Source: Entamoeba invadens IP1
Lineage: Eukaryota > Evosea > Mastigamoebida > Endamoebidae
Length of the DNA: 64,000 nucleotides
Reading direction: 5' to 3'
NCBI RefSeq assembly: GCF_000330505.1
Contig: NW_004191750.1
Location: 280,162-344,161, forward strand
Positions 22,896 to 58,170 of this stretch are shown piece after piece. The position numbers and the translations under genes are program-made. Under the pieces are notes generated by a model that saw only the letters and a list, made by a program, of their open reading frames with translations, did no database searches and was not told the DNA's origin. Each line of letters begins with the position of its first letter. Positions within the stretch are counted from its first letter, which is position 1.

Positions 22896-23089
22896 CTTAA
22901 TTAGAATTCGGCAACCATTTTGTAGTTTTGATATTGAGAAGACAATAACTTCTATAAGACTTGTACTTGATAGAAAAAATCTTATTCAAATTACATTTCA
23001 GCTGATAATAAATTTGTGGAAGATGTTCGAAGAACACTTTGGATTGTAGGTGTTTCAAGCTAAAAATACACAAACGAACTGGAAAAGTA

Positions 23090-25303
23090 ATGTCGAAGTC
23101 GCATTCCAAGAAGAAGATATTTTTGAGTGAAAAGGAGGAGCTTGATTTCCGCCTCAATGAAGTTGACACGTTGTCTACGAAGATGGAAGGGTTTCTTGAA
23201 AACGATAACATGCAGCATGCCCTTGATATCGCTTGCCAGATCTGTGAACATCTTCGAGACGCCACTTTCTCTCCAAAAAGTTATTACGCGCTCTATTTAG
23301 AGGTTCAGACGAAGTTCGGCGTCTTAGCGTCATACCTTCGTAATAAAACCGGGAAGGTGTTGATAACTTATTACGAGAAAGTGCAATACTTTAGCCACGT
23401 TATTCCACGACTTTACTTGATGTGTACTGTTGGATCGGCCTGTATTTTCCAAAAGAAGGTCTCTGTCCCCGACTTCTTACATGACTTGACTGCTATGTGT
23501 AAGTCAGTGCAAAACCCTATTAGAGGACTCTTCTTGAGAACGTATTTACTCGACACATTGAAACCCGTCTTGCCCGATATCAACTCCAAAAAAGACGACG
23601 GGTGTTTGGAGGATTCAACGGAATTTTTGATTGAAAATTTCACAGAGACGAACAAACTGAATCACCGACTTGCCAACAAAGACAAAGAAAGTCAAACCCA
23701 GTTGTGTCAGTTAGTAGCTAAAAATTTGAGTGTCTTGGCTGGGTTAGAGGGAATCTCAATGGAAAGTTACAAGACGACAATACTCCCGCAAATACTGTTA
23801 CAGATATCAGTCGGCGGAGATGATGTTGCGCAAATGTATTTGATGGATGCCGTCATCAATGTCTTCCCTGTCAAAATGCATTTATACACATTGAAACCAA
23901 TCGTGCGGACGGCAGTTACATTGCCACAAAATGTCGATGTGTCCAAATTGTTCAAAGAGATCATCGAGAAGTTAGTCATTTACATCGACACTGTTAAGGA
24001 AGACCAAACGGAGATATACGACATTCTTGACGATGGGATGAAGGAAGTGTTTTTGCATGAGAAAAATACCAAAGAGAATGGCCTTCAGTGGATCAAAGAA
24101 TTTGTTGTTCTAATGAAAAAGTGGTATGGTGTTCAAAAGGCTTTCAATATTGACAAGAAGACAATAAAGAAAGTCGTTGAGTTTTGTCTGACGAAGAAAC
24201 AGCCCAATGACACGAAGAGTTCGACAGAGAACGTCACCGGAAAGGATGAACCTTGGAACACACATGTTGTTGCTTTCATTGAAGCCATTTGTGTCCATCA
24301 AAATATTTTAGATGTCATTCAAATGGATGGTACTTTAGATTTGATCGAAAGCATCGGGTTGAGTTCACGACATCTCCTCCAAAAACGGATAGTTGAATTG
24401 TTCATAACGAGTGGTCTCCCCGTCTCCAATTCGGAGGACTTCACTCTCTTTATTAATGCAACAAATTTGATCCATCGAGATGGCGAAACAGTGAACTTAG
24501 AAACGATTCGAGAAGACTCGAGTTTATCTGCGGCATTTATTCAACGTCTTTCAATACACAATCCTGAAGAAATGATGGCAACTTTGCGAGAGATGAAAGG
24601 AATAATATCTGTCAGTTGTGCGTTACGAAAGAAGATTGTCCTTCCTGCGCTTTGTTTCAAAATTTTGCAAATCACGCCGAAGTCAAAGAATGTGTTTGTT
24701 GGAGCGCTCGACGTTATTAAAATATTAGTCAAGCAGAACGAGAGTCTTTTGGCCCTTCGTCTTGCGTTGTGTTGCTCGATGCACCAAAACGAGAACGACG
24801 TTGATGTCTCCGCATTTTTTGAGTATGCGCTTTCGCTCTTTGAAAACAACATCACCGCTCCACAAGACAAGAAAAGTGCGTTTGAGATGATTGTGGGCAC
24901 CGTGTGTTTCCTTCGTATCGACGATAAAGAGAAGTACATCCAAATGGCAACACAAGTCACAAAATACTCACAAACGCTTGAGGACATCCCGAGTAAAGTC
25001 GCGTGTATAGCAATGAGTAGTGCAATGTGGGTGAAAAGGGAGCAAGACGTTTCTAAGTCGAATTGTGTTCAATGTCTCCAAAAGGCGTTGAAAGAAGCAA
25101 ATCTCTCTTCAGATAACGTCGCACTCTTTGTCGACATATTGAACCGCTACATTTGTTTGTTCAAATACGGACAAACCGATTTGAAAAAGTACATAGTCCA
25201 GCTCGTCGGTGTTATTAAAGAGAACATCGGAACAATTAAAGAACAAACGATCGTCAAATACTTCGAACAGACATGTCTCTACATCTGCGATTTGTTGAAT
25301 TGA
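23090..25303 (+). CDS. VPS35: Retromer subunit Vps35
   Basis: A 737-aa alpha-solenoid protein. ATG 23090 is the first in frame; the ORF extends upstream only with TTG. The N-terminal part carries the Vps35 signature HVIPRLYLMCTVG (~100-113), where PRLYL contacts Vps26. It is followed by the diagnostic NPIRGLFLRTYLLD and later helical repeats that in other organisms bind Vps29. Retromer retrieves cargo from endosomes to the Golgi or plasma membrane and, in Entamoeba, is tied to phagosome maturation and protease sorting. The gene is single-exon. Its 3' end lies 79 bp before a transposon target duplication. Confidence 0.95.
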   Translation: MSKSHSKKKIFLSEKEELDFRLNEVDTLSTKMEGFLENDNMQHALDIACQICEHLRDATFSPKSYYALYLEVQTKFGVLASYLRNKTGKVLITYYEKVQYFSHVIPRLYLMCTVGSACIFQKKVSVPDFLHDLTAMCKSVQNPIRGLFLRTYLLDTLKPVLPDINSKKDDGCLEDSTEFLIENFTETNKLNHRLANKDKESQTQLCQLVAKNLSVLAGLEGISMESYKTTILPQILLQISVGGDDVAQMYLMDAVINVFPVKMHLYTLKPIVRTAVTLPQNVDVSKLFKEIIEKLVIYIDTVKEDQTEIYDILDDGMKEVFLHEKNTKENGLQWIKEFVVLMKKWYGVQKAFNIDKKTIKKVVEFCLTKKQPNDTKSSTENVTGKDEPWNTHVVAFIEAICVHQNILDVIQMDGTLDLIESIGLSSRHLLQKRIVELFITSGLPVSNSEDFTLFINATNLIHRDGETVNLETIREDSSLSAAFIQRLSIHNPEEMMATLREMKGIISVSCALRKKIVLPALCFKILQITPKSKNVFVGALDVIKILVKQNESLLALRLALCCSMHQNENDVDVSAFFEYALSLFENNITAPQDKKSAFEMIVGTVCFLRIDDKEKYIQMATQVTKYSQTLEDIPSKVACIAMSSAMWVKREQDVSKSNCVQCLQKALKEANLSSDNVALFVDILNRYICLFKYGQTDLKKYIVQLVGVIKENIGTIKEQTIVKYFEQTCLYICDLLN

Positions 25304-25382: not shown

Positions 25383-25390
25383 TATTTACA
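25383..25390 (+). repeat. Left target-site duplication TATTTACA
   Basis: This 8-bp copy directly abuts the left terminal inverted repeat. It is identical to the copy at 27022-27029. Confidence 0.85.
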
Positions 25391-27021
25391 TAGGGTGCGC
25401 AACTGTTGACAAAATATTTGCTGTTTGCCCGTTTTTTAACACAAAAAAATACTTTGCTTTAATTGTTTTATTTTTACAACTAATCGTGATCTTCAAAATC
25501 TTGAGATCTGAGATTTTATTAAAAAGATCTGCCATAACAACCAAAAAATCAAAGCTAAAAAAATGAACCAAAAAATAATATTATTTTTGTAATAATGCAT
25601 TTTAGTTTTATAAATTACTTTTTTACTTTAAAAAGTTAATGACAAAATTAATTAGCCTTTTAATTAAAAATCCAATATTTGCGCTTTTTTACCACCACGA
25701 ATAAATGATATTATTTCAATGTTTTCAACAACTTCATATAATTGTTATATTCACTTTATATTATGACAACAACAATACTTTCCATTATTGTTGACATTTA
25801 AAAACAAAAGAAAACAAGCCAAAATTCAAGTAAAAACAGTATTTGGTAAAACAGTACTTGTTAAACTACAACATAATTACAATTGAGTTAAAAAGACAAT
25901 TAAATGACATTGTTTCTTACTTTTGTTTTAGAATTTTATATATAGACGTTCTGTTTGATCATTCACATGATATAAAAAGTTGTTTGACAATTATTTTGCA
26001 TTTTTCATGATTATTATTATTTTTTAATAAATGTTTTCAATGATATAAATAAACGTTTTATTGTTGAAGTGATAACCACATAAACATGTGTCATATTATC
26101 TACATTATAATATGTTATTGATAGCAAATAAACAACACCAAATTTCTTTACTTGATAATAATTATAAATATCTCTGTAACTTTCTTGTTTATTTTTTTGG
26201 TTCATTGTTAATTATATACACATTAATACCCACAAAAACAAAACATCATCAGTTTCTTGTGGCCGTAAGTTGTTGAAACATACAGAGATTGATGTAACAT
26301 TTTTATTTACATTTCAACAATCAACCATCTTTGTTTTTATTATTTATTTTTATTTACATATTCAACCTGGTTTTTTGAAATGAAAACTTATCGTCTTTGT
26401 TTTTCAATTTCTTAAATGAATAGAATGTCAAAGTCGTCTTTATATACAATAAAATACAAATCACTCGTATCATTTTATTTAAAAATCAATTGTTAATTCA
26501 TTCTTTTTTATGTCTATCATGTTTATGACAACACAGTTCATATAGCGTTATTAAACAACGTTTTAATGTTTGTAAGTACCTATTTTAATTTCATTATTAT
26601 TTTGTTGCTTGTGTTGTATTTTTTGAATTTTACAATTTATTTGGAAATGAAAAAACAACAATGTGTTGTTTATACCAAATTATAAAATTTGCTGTCAATT
26701 ATTTATCTATTAAGTTATATAACAAAAATTTCTTTTGTTATCTTATTTTTTTCAATCATACTAATTTGTCTGATAATAAATACAAAATATCAAAAAAGTT
26801 GTTTCTAATTATTATTTGTTTTTTATCAACTTTTGGGACAAATAAAAAGTTTATTTACTTTTAATCGAATACTGTTCACACGTTTCAATATTAAGACAGA
26901 TTTTACAAATTTTGCTCATTATTATGAATAAAATAATAAATTGACATATTTCACTATTTTTTACAATGACAAAAAAAGATTTCATAAAAATGAAAAATTA
27001 CTCTCGCGGTTGCGCACCCTA
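25391..27021. mobile_element. Non-autonomous hAT-like DNA transposon (1631 bp)
   Basis: The element begins TAGGGTGCGCAAC at 25391-25403 and ends GTTGCGCACCCTA at 27009-27021, perfect 13-bp terminal inverted repeats. It is flanked on both sides by the 8-bp direct repeat TATTTACA (25383-25390 and 27022-27029), the target-site duplication. An 8-bp duplication with TAGGG/CAGGG ends is the hallmark of the hAT superfamily. The interior is very AT-rich and has no ORF resembling a transposase; the small ORFs inside are chance. It is therefore a deletion derivative or MITE-like element mobilised in trans. It sits between two convergent genes without breaking either. Confidence 0.85.
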
Positions 27022-27029
27022 TATTTACA
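27022..27029 (+). repeat. Right target-site duplication TATTTACA
   Basis: This 8-bp copy directly abuts the right terminal inverted repeat. Its identity to the left copy suggests a fairly recent insertion. Confidence 0.85.
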
Positions 27030-27087: not shown

Positions 27088-27570
27088 TTAGCACACAAAT
27101 TCCATGACAAAATCGTTCATATAAAATCCGTTTCCAATCTCGTTGTCTTCTTGTCTGATCACGACGAATCCCATTTTCTGATAGAACCCGATTGTTTTAT
27201 TAAATCTATTAACGTTTAAAATAATAGTTTTGCAATAGTTTTGAGTGGCCCATGACTTGACACAATTCATCATGACTTTTCCAATCCCGTTTTTGTGTTC
27301 TTTTGGGTCTAAATAGATTTTGTGGAGGTGACAGACGTCTCCTATTTTTTGAACTGAAATATAGCCAACGTCGGTGTTGTTCTTTTGAAAGAGAGTATAA
27401 ACACACCCCTCAGTTATCTGTCGTTTTAAAGAAGAGTCACTATACATCCAGTCAATCATGTACTCCATTTGCGTTGGGGACAATATCGCTTTGTAAGTGT
27501 CTCGAAAGCAAATTTGGGCAAGTCGCTGGATTTGCGAGATTTCAAAAGGATGACATGAAATCTCTTCCAT
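27088..27570 (-). CDS. GNAT-family N-acetyltransferase, bacterial type
   Basis: A 160-aa protein starting at the ATG at 27568-27570 (MEEISCHPFE). The GNAT fold is clear: VGYISVQK (strand 4), LHKIYLDPKEHKNGIGKVMM with the acetyl-CoA loop Q/RxxGxG/A read here as HKNGIGK, LNVNRFNKTIGFYQKMGF (helix 4 and strand), and the C-terminal IGNGFYMNDFVMEF. This closing motif and LSPTQMEYMIDWMYS are typical of small bacterial acetyltransferases, especially of Bacteroidetes. A past lateral transfer is therefore plausible. The substrate (amine, peptide N-terminus or small molecule) is not known. The gene ends 58 bp from the transposon duplication and is divergent from the next gene. Confidence 0.87.
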   Translation of the reverse strand: MEEISCHPFEISQIQRLAQICFRDTYKAILSPTQMEYMIDWMYSDSSLKRQITEGCVYTLFQKNNTDVGYISVQKIGDVCHLHKIYLDPKEHKNGIGKVMMNCVKSWATQNYCKTIILNVNRFNKTIGFYQKMGFVVIRQEDNEIGNGFYMNDFVMEFVC

Positions 27571-27699
27571 TGAAATTCGAATGTTATTTAAGTAATGCTT
27601 TGTTATGGCACATAGAATTCTAATATGGTTGTATTTACTATTATTACTAACATTTGTTTTATTATAAAAAATTAATTGATTCTGAAAACTCAAAATGAT

Positions 27700-28182
27700 A
27701 TGAATATAGTTTCTTTTTGTTGCGTTTTTTTCGTTTTTTTGAATTGTGCTGCTGATATGAATCAAGAGTGCATTGGAGATTCTTGTCAAATTGAACACAG
27801 AGAAGAACAATTAAACGAAATCAGATACACAATCTCATCACTCACATTTGAGAATAAAGAATTTGAGAAGCAAGAAGATGAGATTCAAGATCGTTATGCC
27901 AAAAAGAGGACATCTCCCCTTGAAAATTTGAACCGACTCATTGTTTTAGTTTCGGAACACCCAGAAAACGCGAACTATAAGGAAGAACAAGAAAAATACA
28001 ATCTCCTTCTCAGAAAAATGAAATTTGATTACTTGGACGAAATCTCAAAGGTTAAAACAAAGCGCTTTAGAAATGAAGCGCAAATAGCACAGCTGAGAGA
28101 TAAATTGGCAAAACTTGGTAATCTCGAAAATGAAAGAACTCAAAATTCACACAATGCTCACCCTCAAGCAAATCGCCGATAA
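27700..28182 (+). CDS. Coiled-coil protein with signal peptide, overlapping NAP gene
   Basis: A 160-aa ORF from ATG 27700. It begins with a hydrophobic signal-like stretch (NIVSFCCVFFVFLNCAA), then a CIGDSC pair and a long charged coiled coil (EQLNEIRYTISSL, EFEKQEDEIQDRY, QIAQLRDKLAKL). The last 16 residues (ERTQNSHNAHPQANRR) look out of frame. The helical pattern continues instead in the +1 frame, which is the start of the NAP-like gene (ATG 28130). Either this is a separate secreted protein overlapping its neighbour by 53 bp, or a 1-nt indel near 28110-28130 splits one longer gene. No family assigned. Confidence 0.55.
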   Translation: MNIVSFCCVFFVFLNCAADMNQECIGDSCQIEHREEQLNEIRYTISSLTFENKEFEKQEDEIQDRYAKKRTSPLENLNRLIVLVSEHPENANYKEEQEKYNLLLRKMKFDYLDEISKVKTKRFRNEAQIAQLRDKLAKLGNLENERTQNSHNAHPQANRR

Positions 28183-32720: not shown

Positions 32721-32820
32721 NNNNNNNNNNNNNNNNNNNNNNNNNNNNNNNNNNNNNNNNNNNNNNNNNNNNNNNNNNNNNNNNNNNNNNNNNNNNNNNN
32801 NNNNNNNNNNNNNNNNNNNN
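32721..32820. other. Assembly gap (100 N)
   Basis: A run of exactly 100 N, which usually marks a gap of unknown true length. Confidence 0.99.
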
Positions 32821-55964: not shown

Positions 55965-58170
55965 ATGGATCCAAATACATGGACTGATGCAACAGTAAAA
56001 ATGTTTAAAGACGCGCAACAAATCGCTTTTCAGCGAAAGGCGCCGTATATAGTGCCGATGCACATGGTGCAAGCAATCTTGGACGACGAGCAGAACATTG
56101 TTGTCCGAGTGGTTCAGATGTGTGGAGGTGACGTGATGAGGATGAAGAATGCAGTTAATGAAGAGATTGGGAAAGTACCAGTGCAAGACCCTGCGCCTGT
56201 TGAAGTTGGTCTGCACCCATCCTCACAACAAGTCCTGCGACGAGCAATGGAAAAACAGAAGGTGATGGGTGATACGTACCTTGCACTTGACACAGTGATC
56301 TTGTCACTTGTTGAGGAGAAAGAGGTTTGAGTGCANNNNNNNNNNNNNNNNNNNNNNNNNNNNNNNNNNNNNNNNNNNNNNNNNNNNNNNNNNNNNNNNN
56401 NNNNNNNNNNNNNNNNNNNNNNNNNNNNNNNNNNNCGGAGAGGGTGCAATGGATGCGGCAAACATCCTGAAGCCAATGTTGTCGAGAGGGGAGTTGCGGT
56501 GCATTGGAGCAACAACACTTGAAGAATACAGAAAGTACGTTGAGAAAGACCCTGCCTTTGAGAGGCGATTCCAGCAGGTCTATGTGGCTGAGCCGAGCGA
56601 AGAGGACACACTGTACATCCTGAGAGGCATCAGAGAGAAGTATGAGAGCCACTACGGACTGACAATCATGGACTCAGCTCTTGTTGCAGCTGCATCGCTA
56701 TCAAAGAGATACATCAATGCAAGGTTTTTGCCAGACAAGGCAATCGATTTGGTTGATGAGGCGTGTGCAACACTCTTCACACAGAAGAACTCGCAGCCTG
56801 AGGAGATCGACAACTTGGAAAGAAAAGACACACAACTGACAGTCGAGAAGATAGCACTTGAGAGAGAGCTGAAGCAGACAACAGAGGACCAGAAGGGAAA
56901 CATAAAGAAGCGACTGGAGGAGATAGCAAAGGAACTGTCAAACAACACTGACAAGTTGACAAAGCTGAGAGCAAACTACGAGAAGGAGAAAGGTGGCAGC
57001 GAAGAGCTCAAGACGCTTGCGCAGAAAATAGAAGATATGAAACACAAGGCGGAAACAACAAGAGATCTTGAGGTTGCCGCAGACTTGAAATATTATGCAA
57101 TTCCAGAGGCAGAGAAGCGACTCACAGAATTGAAGAACCAGACAAAAGAGACATCGATGCTGTCGTTGCAAGTGACCCCACAGCTGATAGAAGATGTGGT
57201 GAGCAAATGGACAGGCATCCCAGTGAGCAGAATGACACAGAGCGAGAAGACAAGACTCCTGAAACTTGGGGACGAGCTGCACAAGAGAGTTGTTGGGCAG
57301 GACGAGGCCGTGACTGCAGTCTCTGAGGCCATTCTGAGAAGCAGAAGTGGTCTTGGATCAGACAAGCGACCGACTGGGTCATTCATGTTCCTTGGACCAA
57401 GTGGTGTTGGCAAGACGGAGCTTGCAAAGGCACTTGCAGAGCAGCTGTTTGACGACGAGAACAACATTGTCAGAATCGATATGAGTGAGTACATGGAGTC
57501 ACACAGCGTCTCACGACTGATTGGAGCGCCACCGGGATACGTTGGACACGACGAGGGTGGACAATTGACAGAGGCAGTCAGAAGAAGACCATACAGCGTT
57601 GTTCTGTTCGATGAAGTCGAAAAGGCGCACCAGCAAGTGTTTAATGTGTTGCTGCAGGTGCTTGATGACGGGCGTCTCACAGATGGAAGAGGAAGAACAG
57701 TTGACTTCAAGAACACAGTCATCATCATGACATCAAATCTCGGCAGCGACATTCTCCTCAACGGCACAACAAAGGATGGGAACCTCAAAAGTGGTGTGAA
57801 AGAAGCTGTGCTCGACAACGTCAAGAAGTTCTTCAAGCCCGAGTTCATCAACAGACTTGACGACATAGTAGTCTTCACACCATTGAGACAAGAAGAGTTG
57901 CGAAAGATCGTGAAAATGCAGATGAAAGACATTGTCGCAAGAATCAAAAAGAGCTACCCAACATGCGACGTCGAGTTGACAGAGAAGGCAGTTGATCAGA
58001 TCATCACGGTCGGCTTCTCGCCACAGTATGGAGCAAGACCAATGAGAAGATACCTCGAGAAGAAGATAGTCACAGACATCTCAGTTGCTATCATCAAGGG
58101 CGACTTGAAAGAAAACAAAAAGATTGTGGTCGGTGCAAAGGATGACGAGATCACTGTCACCATCCAATAA
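55965..58170 (+). CDS. ClpB/Hsp101 disaggregase, interrupted by assembly gap
   Basis: The gene is split by a 100-N gap (56336-56435). Before the gap lies the Clp N-domain (MDPNTWTDATVKMF, VPMHMVQAILDD, LHPSSQQVLRRAM). After it comes the second part of NBD1 (GAMDAANILKPMLSRGELRCIGATT), the coiled-coil middle domain, and NBD2 with Walker A GPSGVGKTELAK, Walker B VVLFDEVEKAH and sensor GARPMRR. NBD1's Walker A and B are missing. By comparison with E. coli ClpB about 165 residues should lie between the two parts, so the gap is larger than shown. The TGA just before the gap lies in low-quality sequence. Hsp101 rescues aggregated proteins with Hsp70. Codon use is richer in CTG/AGC/GAG than in its neighbours. 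Confidence 0.93.
56336..56435. other. Assembly gap (100 N) inside ClpB
   Basis: A run of exactly 100 N. The protein comparison implies roughly 500 bp are absent, so the number is a placeholder. Confidence 0.99.

Follow-up and report, generated by a model that had tools for sequence, protein, structure and literature searches.

Locus and structure of the element

The window, the 64,000-nucleotide stretch of the Entamoeba invadens IP1 genome analyzed here, carries a 1631 bp element lying between two convergent host genes (Table 1). Upstream is a Vps35 frame, whose two best matches among the 16 proteins listed, from E. histolytica and E. marina, each reach 44% identity, which fits the genus Entamoeba. 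Downstream is a GNAT acetyltransferase frame on the opposite strand. The duplications that flank the element are 79 bp from the Vps35 stop codon and 58 bp from that of GNAT, just as the preliminary description of this DNA had measured. In its position between the 3′ ends of the two genes, the insertion probably has little effect. Elsewhere in the window are two runs of 100 N (32721-32820 and 56336-56435), which are probably scaffold gaps.

Table 1. Features of the element and its flanks (window positions)
Feature	Position	Strand	Basis
Vps35 host frame (as listed)	23039..25303	+	PF03635, E 4.8e-120
Left target-site duplication TATTTACA	25383..25390		letters read, flank comparison
Predicted non-autonomous hAT element, 1631 bp	25391..27021	+	ends, frames, genome copies, alignment
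Left terminal inverted repeat TAGGGTGCGCAAC	25391..25403	+	repeat and pattern search
Left subterminal block, aligns to left end of 2.96-kb hAT element	25409..25614	+	shuffle-scored alignment
Right terminal inverted repeat, exact inverse of left	27009..27021	-	repeat and pattern search
Right target-site duplication TATTTACA	27022..27029		letters read, flank comparison
GNAT acetyltransferase host frame (as listed)	27088..27810	-	PF13673, E 2.7e-13

The preliminary description had proposed perfect inverted ends around an AT-rich, transposase-free segment, with the same 8 bp on both outer sides, and each of these points proved correct to the base. The terminal inverted repeats (TIRs) are 13 bp long, perfect, and separated by 1605 bp. 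The repeat finder reported a 14-bp pair instead, because the duplication begins with T and ends in A. The G+C content is 22.4%, compared with 34.0% for the whole window. Only four frames of at least 60 aa (ATG, GTG or TTG start) touch the element (61, 62, 62 and 67 aa), so no frame from a start codon exceeds 67 aa, and the longest stop-to-stop stretch is 91 aa. An Rfam scan of the whole window at gathering scores returned no match.

Dispersed copies and target-site duplications

We searched the genome (35 Mb, 233 contigs) with the window element and found at least 29 matching stretches of this 1.6-kb family, which fall into 24 places once five split copies (C8, C40, C175, C199 and C205a) are joined. 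A separate pattern search of the 35 Mb for the TIR gave 24 exact sites and 26 further sites with one mismatch. These 50 sites compare with 20 for a reversed-pattern control. Four of the 24 exact sites (C9:63086, C23, C30 and C73) come from other families that share this TIR.

Nine of the 24 places (the window copy, C136, C175, C9, C99, C8, C199, C205a and C32) were read at both ends, and eight of these have a flanking direct duplication. Seven duplications are of 8 bp: TATTTACA in the window, TTCATTTT at C136, ATCACTAT at C175, TTTAAGAA at both C9 and C99, TATTATAT at C8 and TGTAACAG at C199. The eighth, TTTGTTGTG at C205a, is 9 bp long. The C32 copy has both ends, and its flanks show no matching duplication. 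The count leaves out the other 15 places: in C36, C158 (21924) and C205b one end is missing from the sequence read, and the remainder are either fragments or were covered at no more than one end.

All the duplications differ between copies, except that C9 and C99 share theirs. These two (L007 and L008) represent a single duplicated locus with the same insertion, 96% identical over 4.6 kb, and could be either a segmental duplication or two haplotypes that were assembled apart. As C9 and C99 are one locus, the duplications record seven independent insertions. Thus the genome holds what the preliminary description had predicted, multiple copies whose ends agree and whose 8-bp flanks differ, and the absence of other copies, which it had named as evidence against its reading, is not what we found.

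Empty sites

We made joined flanks (110 + 110 bases, with one copy of the target) for five copies and searched the genome with three of them, C136, C175 and C9. With the C136 query, seven other places aligned across the junction, with 81-90% identity and a length of at least 214 of the 220 bases. Five more matched positions 8-220 at 73-76%, and three further places matched shorter stretches across the junction. The C175 query matched six places over all 220 bases at 95-98%. For the C9 insertion no empty site was found, as the search returned only the C9 and C99 halves and short matches to one flank. Empty sites with one target copy were thus recovered for two of the three insertions searched.

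We fetched and aligned the junctions of seven of the 13 empty sites. All four of those read for C175 carry a single ATCACTAT. The three read for C136 all carry a single TTCACTTT; the corresponding sequence flanking the inserted copy is TTCATTTT on either side. Because the aligned empty sites have one copy of the target, they fix the exact boundaries of the element and document an 8-bp duplication on insertion. Both the C136 and C175 copies sit inside other repeats, which exist uninterrupted elsewhere in the genome. The left flank of the window copy, the flank that was searched, is single-copy, and therefore no empty site for the window copy is expected in this genome.

Age of the window copy

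We aligned 11 copies or parts of copies, namely the window copy and 10 relatives. The window copy is most similar to C205b (98.5% identity), followed by C175 (96.9%), C136 (95.5%) and C158 (95.0%), and is 83-91% identical to the other six. It has seven private substitutions in 1625 comparable positions (0.43%), a value that depends on the relatives sampled, and only C205b has a lower private rate (4 in 1187). Based on these seven substitutions, the window copy looks young within the family. The preliminary description had called the insertion recent on the grounds that its duplication is intact. The private substitutions are the better evidence for recency. The reason offered is weak evidence, because the C9 copy, which is only 88% identical, also has an intact duplication.

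A 2.96-kb hAT element with nearly the same ends

Two longer elements in the genome have ends of the form TAGGGTGC(A/T)CAAT and TAG(G/T)GTGCGCAAT. The C94 element is 2961 bp long, has the ends TAGGGTGCACAAT and TAGGGTGCGCAAT, and is flanked by a 9-bp duplication. The C148 element is 2960 bp long, 94% identical to the C94 copy, and has the 8-bp duplication TATTGTAA. C72 apparently holds a further, split copy, and an 86% copy at C29 is known from the genome search alone. Pieces of the C148 element matched the Pfam families Dimer_Tnp_hAT (PF05699, E 7e-12) and zf-BED (PF02892, E 3.3e-5). The C94 piece that corresponds to the C148 BED finger reached only E 0.36, and for two other pieces (C148 and C72) a cut-off as loose as E 10 brought up no family. 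In all three copies read (C94, C72 and C148) the transposase frames appear broken, although introns are possible. The autonomous hAT copy that had been predicted is thus found in part: an element with nearly the same ends encodes pieces of a hAT transposase, but the copies read include only apparently decayed ones and no intact partner.

At best, in the right-end TIR at C94, 12 of 13 bases agree between the two families. Further in, the left end of the 2.96-kb element can be aligned with bases 19-224 of the window element, giving z scores of 8.4 for the window copy and 10.8 for the C9 copy (200 dinucleotide shuffles; six control comparisons gave values between -1.1 and 2.5). The genome search concurs, with a match to the left end at C9:48442-48618 (69%, E 6.3e-7). 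At the right end, 21 of the first 25 bases are common to the window element and its hAT relative, and likeness beyond the tip is not significant (z 1.8 and 1.0). The core of the window family has no counterpart in the 2.96-kb element that was detectable at the sensitivity used. By these alignments, the left ~220 bp of the window family is related to one end of the 2.96-kb element. The window family is not visibly derived from that element by internal deletion, as only these ~220 bp are detectably related.

The ~1.4-kb core is non-coding and is nearly full length in several dispersed copies. In our view it is very unlikely that this core was captured and serves a function of its own in the element, for example in transcription or in evasion of small RNAs, rather than being filler.

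Other elements and rejected candidates

The split C205a copy (L061, 2727 bp) was examined as a possible longer, transposase-bearing element and rejected. Because most of its extra interior recurs in sequence flanking the C136 copy (L002), and the single frame tested from it has no Pfam match, C205a reads as another repeat nested together with a deletion. Also rejected were two left-end fragments at C7 and C63 (L062 and L063), in which the family match stops after 275 and 196 bases and for which the retrieved sequence contained no right end of the family. Beyond this, L063 contains a DDE_1 frame. The sites AAGGGTGCGCAAC at C40, C86 and C102 (L045-L047) all lie inside long open frames, with no element present.

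A 139-bp MITE occurs at L042:1258-1396 and L043:6758-6896. The MITE is 83% self-complementary from end to end; its ends read TAGGGTGCGCAACCGAGAATTTTCT, and its 8-bp duplications, AATAATAT and CATTTTAT, are exact. Its 13-bp TIR is common with that of the window element, and we saw no further match between the two. Another non-autonomous family, about 1.38 kb long, is present at L048:1096-2476 and L049:1217-2599, with duplications of 8/9 and 8/8. Both of its halves are related to the ends of the 2.96-kb hAT element (80-87%), and it is apparently an internal-deletion derivative of that element.

We also identified a repeated unit of ~9.2-9.3 kb (G000 C126:3250-12523, C28:17939-27211, C173:11953-21186 and C51:12893-22967), of which the C51 copy, partly N, measures 10.1 kb. 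It has inverted ends of at least 55 bp, and the C126, C28 and C51 copies contain a frame with the hAT dimerisation domain. A length of 9.2-9.3 kb is large for a hAT element. The C175 copy of the window family is inserted in sequence that matches one end of this unit. Finally, a 712-aa open frame occurs at L045:5646-7781 (C40) and in L023 (C186), in DNA that is 99.6% identical over 3 kb. As it is open, has a hAT dimerisation domain and is present in two copies, it may be an intact transposase from a different hAT family.

Classification and mobilization

The 1.6-kb family has multiple copies with common ends and 8-bp duplications, and was inserted precisely into other repeats. Very probably, the window element is a non-autonomous hAT DNA transposon that would move by cut-and-paste, using a hAT transposase supplied in trans. 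The enzyme would recognize ends beginning TAGGGTGCGCAAY, and presumably subterminal sequence as well, and would duplicate 8 bp of the target on insertion. It would most likely be an intact form of the 2.96-kb family transposase, or a close relative of it. The hAT-like reading proposed in the preliminary description is supported by the 8-bp duplications, the two sets of empty sites, and the relative with hAT transposase and nearly the same ends. Further hAT features are the short (13-bp, perfect) TIRs, whose letters we take to resemble hAT end consensuses, and the BED finger and dimerisation domain found between like ends in C148. Points against are that no intact autonomous copy was seen among those read, that the core and the right end beyond its tip do not resemble the hAT relative, that no empty site turned up for C9 and the left flank of the window copy is single-copy, that the C32 copy has no matching flanks, and that the duplications at C205a and the C94 element are of 9 rather than 8 bp.

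The element could also be of the same non-autonomous hAT kind and yet be mobilized by a different, unseen hAT transposase, which we regard as possible but rather unlikely. The genome has 45 matches to the hAT dimerisation domain, and the 2.96-kb element shows no match to either the core or the right subterminal region. However, when 30 of the 45 hAT loci were scanned for the TIR (up to two mismatches), including as much as about 1.5 kb of flanking sequence, it was found only at L015 and L037, both of the 2.96-kb family; ends located farther out would escape this range. The left subterminal block, through its relationship to that family, also argues against an unseen enzyme.

An 8-bp target duplication is not by itself unique to hAT, and so a transposon of another superfamily with duplications of this length deserves mention. 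It is highly improbable here, being largely excluded by the relative that carries hAT: in C94 and C148 pieces of hAT transposase lie between nearly identical ends, and the left subterminal homology ties the window family to them. A chance inverted repeat combined with a chance duplication can be considered in DNA this AT-rich, where short repeats are common. In the window, 63 perfect 13-bp inverted pairs lie 100-5000 bp apart, compared with a mean of 24.9 in 100 second-order Markov sequences. Identical 8-mer flanks occur at only one of the 63 pairs, the window element itself, and the combination appeared in none of the 100 controls. Together with the dispersed copies and the empty sites, which refute it, this leaves coincidence with practically no probability.

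As a non-autonomous hAT, the window element resembles the non-autonomous hATs and hAT MITEs of other eukaryotes, which have short inverted ends, 8-bp duplications and AT-rich, non-coding sequence, and are multi-copy. It differs in size, as 1.6 kb is long for a MITE, and in that its core is no visible deletion derivative of the 2.96-kb hAT element. With that element it shares TIR bases and a related left end; the 2.96-kb element differs in having an apparently decayed transposase and an otherwise unrelated interior at the sensitivity used.

To find non-autonomous hAT elements in an Entamoeba is no surprise, and the element is of a known kind. Table 1 of PMC2657916 lists hAT (Chapka) for E. invadens, and not for E. 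histolytica or E. dispar, and the same source gives 3.8 Mb as the span of DNA transposons in the E. invadens genome. The likeness of the window element to Chapka is one of superfamily and genus, and the window element differs in having no transposase. A literature search covering titles and the starts of abstracts returned no description of the 1.6-kb family. The family overturns nothing. Because its ends are exact, its copies differ in age and empty sites exist, it can serve as a cleanly delimited marker family for comparing strains and for annotating the hAT elements of Entamoeba.
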